From Anaeropeptidivorans aminofermentans (lineage in GTDB: Bacteria; Bacillota; Clostridia; Lachnospirales; UBA5962): 64,000 nucleotides of DNA. Every line of letters starts with the position of its first letter. Positions within the stretch are counted from its first letter, which is position 1. A program made the translations under genes and the position numbers. Of the stretch, positions 30,974-61,287 are shown one piece after another. Below the pieces are notes generated by a model. The model saw nothing but the letters and a program-made list of their open reading frames with translations. It did not search any database and was not told where the DNA came from. The DNA lies in contig NZ_OW711693.1 in the NCBI RefSeq assembly GCF_940670685.1, positions 186,001 to 250,000 of the forward strand. Direction: 5' to 3'.

Positions 30974-31110
30974 ATAGTAAATTTCATATAAAGAAGCAGC
31001 AAAAGCCTATTCCCTTAAGGCTCAAAAATACGGATTTCCTTCGGAAACGGTACATTTTTGAGCCTTCGTGAATATACGGCTTTGCTACTATTTAACTTTA
31101 AATTTACTAT
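30974..31110. repeat. Family A element between nanE and nagA
   Basis: Full-length 137-bp A element (ATAGTAAATTT ... AAATTTACTAT) flanked by TA. Its core is the TTTCCTTCGGAAAC hairpin inside a long palindrome. It lies over the 3' end of nanE and supplies that gene's last residues and its stop codon. Confidence 0.9.
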
Positions 31111-33702: not shown

Positions 33703-34188
33703 TTACTTCAACTTCTTCTTAACATCGTCCCATGAGAGTTTTTTCTCCCCGGGCACGATTTGGAAGAAAACGTCTACGTCGTTTTGAACCAAAGATTCAA
33801 TTACACAAATATCTTCTTTGCTTAGGTAGGTTCCTGTGTTAACCTCCTGAGCCCCCGGTCTTTTTGCCACAGGGCCGATATTCATGATCTTGGGTAAATC
33901 TTCGACATTTTCCATAAGTGATTTGTAAATGACGGGGCTTCTGAAGAGAACCAGCGTATTTTGGCTGTCTGAAACAGCTTTTCTGATAGGTTCGTAAGAT
34001 TCTAAGACGGTATACACGTTTGCCTTCATAGAAGGCGGTACGGCCTTTTCGAATACAAGTTTCATAACGGAATTGGTGGCTGTAAAATCATCTACGACTA
34101 TAATAGACTTGATGAAATATTCCTGTACGATTTTCGTCATGCACTGGCCGTGAATCAGCCTGTCGTCACAACGGACCAAACGAATCAA
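33703..34188 (-). CDS. PTS mannose-family IIB component (set 1)
   Basis: A 161-residue PTS IIB subunit of the sorbose/mannose type. It opens with the family motif RLVRCDDRLIHGQC, where His13 is the phosphate carrier, and ends with FFQIVPGEKKLSW. It passes phosphate from IIA to the incoming sugar. The start is TTG 34188, four bases after a strong AAAGGGGGAGA site; an upstream ATG (34230) would add residues foreign to the family. No IIA domain is fused; the nearest free IIA genes are at 35863 and 44501 on the other strand. Confidence 0.9.
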   Translation of the reverse strand: MIRLVRCDDRLIHGQCMTKIVQEYFIKSIIVVDDFTATNSVMKLVFEKAVPPSMKANVYTVLESYEPIRKAVSDSQNTLVLFRSPVIYKSLMENVEDLPKIMNIGPVAKRPGAQEVNTGTYLSKEDICVIESLVQNDVDVFFQIVPGEKKLSWDDVKKKLK

Positions 34189-35716: not shown

Positions 35717-35862
35717 TTGTACTTTATGAGCTTAAAGCTTATAAATATATTTCTGATGCAAAATATAAAATAAACTTTAGTTTATTTTATATTCTTGTGG
35801 CTTTGGCTATTTTCAGATACTGTCTAGTTCAGCTTAAAATTATGGATATGGGGAGGTTTGTT

Positions 35863-60296: not shown

Positions 60297-60421
60297 ACAG
60301 AAAAAGAGCAGCCTTTAGCTGCTCTTTTTCTCTAATAAAGAAAAGGTATTATGGGGTTTACAGTTAGGACTACATATTTGGGGGATGTATCTACTGTAAA
60401 GTGAAAATTGGGGGTTTTCAC
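60297..60421 (-). ncRNA. Candidate small RNA with two C-rich loops
   Basis: On the minus strand TGATATAAT (TATAAT at 60433-60428) is an extended -10; the -35 is poor. Transcription would start near 60421, exactly where a hairpin begins: stem GTGAAAA/TTTTCAC, loop CCCCCAA (60421-60401). A second hairpin (60397-60360, ACAGT/ACTGT outer stem, ACAT/ATGT inner stem) shows the same CCCCCAA loop. A strong terminator closes it (GAGCAGC/GCTGCTC plus TTTTT, to about 60297). No open frame with a ribosome site is present. Repeated C-rich loops are typical of Firmicutes small RNAs that bind Shine-Dalgarno sequences, so a trans-acting regulator is inferred. About 125 nt. Confidence 0.55.
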
Positions 60422-60693
60422 AATTGTATTATATCACCTTTATTAATTTAAGTGTGCATAAATAATATTTTTTATAAAAAAACTTTTTAGTATATATTAT
60501 ACAGTATACATATGTTATAAAAGAATAAAGGATAAAAAGAAACCGGCAGTTAGTTATACTTTTAGCAAATTATCCTTAATACAAGAATTTAAAAACACAT
60601 AAGAAAAACTTTTATAGGATAAAAATAAGATTTTGAAACAGAGAAATTAATTTTACTGTTTCAAACTAAATGCAAGCTTCTTTTTAATATTTT
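60422..60693. other. AT-rich spacer with palindromes
   Basis: Contains the small RNA promoter and, at about 60490-60515, AGTATATATTATACAGTATACATATG, a run of overlapping TATA-type palindromes. Nothing else is recognised. Confidence 0.4.
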
Positions 60694-61287
60694 CTAGCTT
60701 GTGTAATCCTCCAAAAGCCGCATAAGAGCTTCTTCTCCTGAAATGGAAATACCATCGAGAAGCTTTTGCCTTTCATCTTCCGGCAAAGCGCTTACGGGGG
60801 TATCGGTGATTTCTTTGATTTTTGCTCCGTCTATTGCTTCATTATAAAAAACCGCCACATATCCATCTTGAACCCCTACAATATAGTTCTGGGCGGAGCT
60901 TCCCTCCATCTGCCTTCTCATGATGACTTCTTCTTCCGTAAATTTAACGATTTCCCACTGGTCGAAGGTAATCTCCATTTCTTCTTTTGTTTTTCCAATC
61001 ATAAAATGGGGCGGATCCTCTTCAGACCTTTCAGTGTTTCTGTCGTCTTTGTAATAATATTCGTAAATCATTTTTGTATAAGGCTTTATTTTTACTATTT
61101 CTTCTTCTTTTATATTATTGGCTTCAATGTCTGTATCCTTTGGCGTTTCCGGCAAGAGGGCAGTATTTGCTAACTGTTCCGGCTTCTGGGAAGGATTGTT
61201 GAATATGCCATAGCTGAAATACGCCCCGACGCCAAGAACGACTGCTCCTAATAAAACTAATATAATTGCTGCTGCAAGCCTTTTCAT
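60694..61287 (-). CDS. Membrane-anchored protein with BofC-like C-terminal domain
   Basis: A 197-residue protein: one N-terminal TM helix (about 5-27), a variable Glu/Lys-rich linker, then a domain ending in YIVGVQDGYVAVFYNEA, the PVSALPEDERQKLLDGI segment and LMRLLEDYTS. That pattern (GYVAV ... PVSxLP ... L-EDY-S) is shared with the C-terminal domain of BofC, an intercompartmental sporulation checkpoint protein. In clostridia such proteins are widespread and poorly known. ATG 61287 has GGGAGG six bases upstream; the longer frame reads through an A element and is not real. Confidence 0.78.
   Translation of the reverse strand: MKRLAAAIILVLLGAVVLGVGAYFSYGIFNNPSQKPEQLANTALLPETPKDTDIEANNIKEEEIVKIKPYTKMIYEYYYKDDRNTERSEEDPPHFMIGKTKEEMEITFDQWEIVKFTEEEVIMRRQMEGSSAQNYIVGVQDGYVAVFYNEAIDGAKIKEITDTPVSALPEDERQKLLDGISISGEEALMRLLEDYTS

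Follow-up and report, generated by a model that had tools for sequence, protein, structure and literature searches.

The question raised by the minus strand at 60297-60433 of this Anaeropeptidivorans aminofermentans sequence is whether it encodes a small RNA and, if so, in what manner that RNA would act. In this interval of the window, the whole 64,000-nucleotide stretch of DNA that was analysed, a preliminary description had noted an extended -10 motif, two hairpins and a terminator, features that are confirmed by the sequence and its predicted fold. The predicted small RNA, approximately 122-124 nt in length, occupies 60299-60422 on the minus strand, with its first base at 60421 or 60422, as judged from its promoter, fold, terminator and homologues. 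On the same strand, it is preceded by a -35 region, TTTATGCACACTT (60450-60462), matching the TTTGTGAACACTT conserved in relatives, and by an extended -10, TGATATAAT (60428-60436), with the first hairpin beginning 5-6 nt downstream. Hairpin 1 (60401-60422), GTGAAAA-CCCCCAA-TTTTCAC, is evident both in the predicted fold and in homologues and has its loop, CCCCCAA, at 60408-60414; as RNA it would read UGUGAAAA-CCCCCAA-UUUUCAC, starting 5 nt after TGATATAAT at the predicted +1. Hairpin 2 (60357-60400), supported by the predicted fold and by covariation, displays the same loop at 60378-60384. It is followed by a single-stranded stretch, CCCCATAATACCTTTTCTTTATT (60334-60356), comprised of a third unpaired C-run, CCCC at 60356-60353, and a tail, AUACCUUUUCUUUAUU at 60349-60334, upstream of an intrinsic terminator with a 15-pair stem (60299-60331). 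The single contig of 3,757,330 bases that makes up the genome contains one copy of this sequence.

These parts recur in relatives with a regularity that, at the level of sequence, marks the locus as a stand-alone gene with its own promoter and intrinsic terminator. The extended -10 matches a strict pattern in 51 of 55 homologues, hairpin 1 follows it at 5 or 6 nt in 53 of 53, and a T-rich terminator, variable in sequence, is kept in 54 of 55. As had been claimed, no protein frame is present, there being no open reading frame (ORF) of at least 30 aa on the minus strand of the transcript. A small peptide product was likewise rejected, since the transcripts of 53 homologues have no ORF of note (longest complete ORF per homologue: median 13 aa, maximum 37 aa). 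In family f17, the promoters also carry a conserved GTCCCAC-like element between the -35 and -10 (TAGACA...GTCCCACRTGnTATAAT; loci L122-L126, L128, L129, L132, L133, L135, L137 and L284); such an element is not usual for a spacer and may mark a site for a regulator.

Homologues were identified computationally throughout. BLAST found a copy with 78% identity in a second genus of the family, likewise situated downstream of murI and a BofC_C-domain gene, then reached family f12 and gave partial matches in f17, amounting to 92 of 295 genomes with some of the matches weak and partial. A covariance model built from 23 sequences (R1) gave a single match in each of 83 genomes out of the order's 392, distributed as 45 in f12, 34 in f17, two in f1 and one each in f5 and f7. 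A second model trained on 67 matches (R2) extended this to 90 of 392, again one per genome, representing 30 genera and about seven families. Across the class, R1 matched three of 391 genomes, all three from the same order. The E-values are rough because the calibration was short, and weak matches consequently rest on inspection of their anatomy. Five R2 matches from outside the training set (G062, G188, G197, G212 and G264) were inspected and share the same anatomy: an extended -10 or a near match to it, the loop-1 C-run, a second hairpin, a second C-rich stretch, the AUACCUUCUC tail and the terminator. Such breadth is unusual for trans-acting small RNAs, which, according to the IsrR study, are usually poorly conserved (PMC9410917). 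Database records indicate that many of the hosts are uncultured animal-associated bacteria, and in a named collection the entries with a match to the conserved core are mostly clostridial assemblies from animal gut and rumen, Candidatus Gallispira among them. Comparison of these sequences indicates that the locus most probably encodes a genuine small RNA of approximately 125 bases, common to many genera of one clostridial order.

The predicted fold is markedly stable, with a minimum free energy of -36.2 kcal/mol against -14.1 ± 3.0 in dinucleotide shuffles (z = -7.4; none of 200 shuffles folded as well), but a strong terminator alone could give much of this z-score; conservation is the decisive evidence. 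In alignment A5, which was fitted to the covariance model and so leans towards the modelled structure, the covariation score is 0.265, compared to 0.109 ± 0.008 when shuffled and at most 0.064 with slid partners. Over the 56 distinct rows of this alignment, 95.3% of pair cells are standard pairs and two-sided changes are seen at 13 of 16 helix pairs. Helix 1 is 98.9% paired across the 56 distinct homologues, with two-sided changes at five pairs, and hairpin 2 has such changes at all eight of its modelled pairs. A MAFFT alignment of 26 close sequences by itself contains only two covarying pairs, because these sequences are too similar. The sequence of helix 1 is largely constant across f1, f12 and f17, and is replaced in G006 (AGUGAGGGA...), f11 and G062; the last of these, found by R2 and not used in model building, has a wholly different stem, GUAACC/GGUUAC around UACCCCAA, yet retains the AUACCUUCUC tail.

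The presence of CCCCCAA in both loops, which had been presented as a defining feature, is true of the window and peculiar to the A. aminofermentans genome; it was rejected as a definition, as relatives do not keep it. The features that are conserved are the loop-1 C-run, a second unpaired C-run and the near-invariant tail AUACCUUCUCUUU. Loop 1 is CTCCCCAATA in f17 and CCCCTAA or CCCTTAA in f12, the exceptions being CTCTTAA in one f12 variant and G006, where C-runs are found in loop 2 instead. The expectation that homologues would keep both loops and the terminator was borne out for the terminator and, nearly everywhere, for loop 1, whereas the C-run of loop 2 is retained in f1 and f12 but not in f17, which has no C-rich loop at this position. 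The linker 3' of hairpin 2 usually contains CCCC or CCC. Two or more runs of at least CCC are found in 51 of 53 homologues and were unpaired in the predicted folds inspected, in agreement with the model in which the C-rich motifs of the loops and linker are single-stranded. The tail, 13 nt long and near-invariant over several families, is intact as AUACCUUCUCUUU under a strict pattern in 49 of 55 homologues; the window's version, AUACCUUUUCUUU, differs by one change. This near-invariance raises the testable question of its binding partner.

Streptococcal csRNAs (RF02379) are likewise short RNAs with C-rich unpaired segments and a terminator. The proposal that the locus is an independent gene of this general Firmicutes kind is upheld by its conserved promoter spacing, terminators and C-runs. 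Nevertheless, it scores only 22.2 bits with the csRNA covariance model, against a gathering threshold of 57 bits, and 16.7 bits with that of RsaE/RoxS (RF01820), against 79 bits. Neither the window nor nine relative loci had a match at the locus in Rfam 15 at the gathering threshold, and families appearing at relaxed thresholds were rejected as chance matches, the only kind also seen with the f12 copy in L017. No description was found in Rfam or in the open-access literature searched. In its predicted mode of action the RNA resembles the small RNAs with C-rich segments known from Firmicutes, but it falls outside every catalogued family tested and constitutes a previously uncatalogued family absent from Rfam.

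Three characterized systems provide the closest parallels in layout. LhrC1-5 of Listeria similarly present a C/CU-rich motif several times over, first in one hairpin loop, again in a linker and once more in another loop, and pair at the Shine-Dalgarno region of lapB with Hfq being dispensable (PMC4132741); they differ in being multicopy, in carrying the third motif in the terminator loop and in having no sequence-model match. IsrR of Staphylococcus, compared by layout, has two 5' hairpins with C-rich loops and an unpaired C-rich region, together with conserved stems, little covariation, a variable terminator and wide conservation, but is Fur-regulated, belongs to a different order and has no CU-rich tail in the portion of the source drawn upon (PMC9410917). 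RsaE/RoxS and FsrA are also short, stand-alone RNAs that contact mRNA targets through C-rich regions, although RoxS is conserved in Bacilli and Staphylococci (PMC8216469). Multi-site antisense repression has been established experimentally for LhrC (PMC4132741), and the same type of repression is described for RoxS and FsrA (PMC8216469) and for IsrR (PMC9410917).

The C-rich loops and linker, CU-rich tail, terminator and general lack of an Hfq match fit this type of repression, and the RNA is considered probable to be an independently transcribed, trans-acting, Hfq-independent regulator that base-pairs through multiple sites at ribosome-binding sites. Transcription would begin from a sigma-A-type promoter, with its extended -10, at the base of hairpin 1; in this position the hairpin would shield the 5' end, and the terminator would close the transcript. 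The two hairpins and linker would keep the C-runs and the CU-rich tail (ACCUUCUCUUU) unpaired, allowing these segments to base-pair at Shine-Dalgarno regions that are G-rich or of the AAGG type, and so to block translation or alter mRNA stability, probably switching genes off. Several segments might act on different targets or on the same one, with no need for Hfq. We infer transcription, mRNA pairing, repression and target identity alike and, as computation yielded no target, pairing at ribosome-binding sites from anatomy and analogy. Hfq-dependent small RNAs need Hfq in the genome, and no Hfq match was found in 10 of the 11 genomes tested, the window's own included. The alignment and model offer a ready starting point for studying small RNAs in Clostridia that lack a detectable Hfq. 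Hfq was found in one genome bearing the small RNA (G012:C178:3204-3395).

Target prediction drew on sequence sampled at even intervals, about 400 kb from each genome. Within the genome of the window, every exposed segment had approximately three to five times more very strong matches in start regions than its shuffles, a weak enrichment given the wide spread of the shuffles and its inconsistency in G254 and G112. In each of the 12 genomes searched, the tail complement, AAAGAGAAGGTATT, was matched perfectly only at the small RNA gene itself, and matches with one mismatch stayed at the control level; with no conserved match beyond the gene, the idea that the tail has a long conserved target was rejected. 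One clear start-site case was present among the tail-complement matches inspected, a lipoprotein gene in G057 (L198, 1501, minus strand) whose Shine-Dalgarno region, AAAGAGAAGGTGTTTAAATG, fits the tail complement at 13 of 14 bases.

Mannose-family PTS operons might be the main conserved targets, as ptsG and manXYZ are of SgrS, and the mannose-PTS IIB gene at 34188 had been put forward as a target along with GGGGG-type sites in general. Its start region does pair strongly (3rd-5th percentile), and the top two linker pairings among 330 sampled start regions were with a IIB and with the mannose-type EIIA at 35862 (plus strand; TATGGGGAGGTTTG), the latter forming the strongest duplex at -20.5 kcal/mol. 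Yet this pattern was noticed post hoc, the plain 16S anti-Shine-Dalgarno sequence ranks PTS genes equally high, and shuffled loop-1 and linker segments equalled the preference in 19-22% of trials, with only loop 2 standing out (2 of 100 shuffles). Furthermore, such PTS are missing from four of eight other genomes bearing the small RNA, and these targets were rejected because Shine-Dalgarno strength accounts for the pairing and not all hosts share them, leaving this reading highly improbable. A regulatory or processed 3' UTR would instead tie the RNA to the BofC_C-domain membrane-protein gene just upstream (60694-61287, minus strand). In 53 of the 56 R1-positive genomes for which a BofC_C match is listed, this gene precedes the RNA on the same strand, mostly at a distance of 54-300 nt, and it is the sole widely common neighbour among 34 loci (27 loci), the other genes changing. 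Against such a UTR, the promoter is conserved at a fixed distance from the hairpin, and in the f5 genomes G197, G212 and G264 genes other than bofC precede the RNA, meaning that the association is not absolute. The start regions of bofC are at chance as pairing partners (mean percentile 0.40-0.54), and its mRNA was rejected as a target. BofC_C is also present in many genomes of the order in which no copy of the RNA was recognised; among 20 genomes lacking an R1 match, the sequence downstream of bofC yielded three diverged copies (L151, L160 and L167, the first two scoring weakly at rough R2 E-values of 0.003 and 0.03) and the other 17 regions had no recognisable copy. BofC_C is best viewed as a conserved neighbour separate from the RNA, whose origin as a UTR is improbable. 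None of GGGGG sites, mannose-PTS IIB and bofC is thus supported as a target beyond what Shine-Dalgarno strength provides. That the hairpins are fortuitous or a decayed repeat, as the dispersed repeats in the same intergenic region might suggest, is scarcely credible in view of the homologues, with their conservation, covariation and synteny.

The main rival to base-pairing with mRNA is a protein-binding or titrating RNA, in which hairpin 1 and the tail form a protein site and mRNA pairing is secondary. Both elements are more invariant than plain Shine-Dalgarno pairing demands, an excess that a bound protein would also fit, as would the absence of a long complementary target for the tail; the same proposal is made by the IsrR authors for its invariant stems (PMC9410917). 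Conversely, G006, G016 and G062 have replaced the sequence of hairpin 1 while still having an unpaired C-rich segment and a tail that can be recognised, which argues that the unpaired bases matter rather than the stem, and protein binding as the primary role is unlikely. An extension of this reading, quite doubtful at present, is that the RNA might be a core regulator of the entire order, in bacteria mostly without detectable Hfq, with AUACCUUCUCUUU and hairpin 1 bound by an RNA-binding protein or the ribosome and with a functional tie to BofC_C.

The window's genome harbours eleven IIB genes of the mannose-family PTS, of which two lie within the window (33.7 and 39.7 kb). A dispersed intergenic repeat containing ATAGTAAATTTNAAGTNAAA has 13 matches against 0.76 expected by chance, at 31091, 34353, 57366, 59762, 60237, 61463, 63922 and other positions, with copies on both sides of the small RNA.
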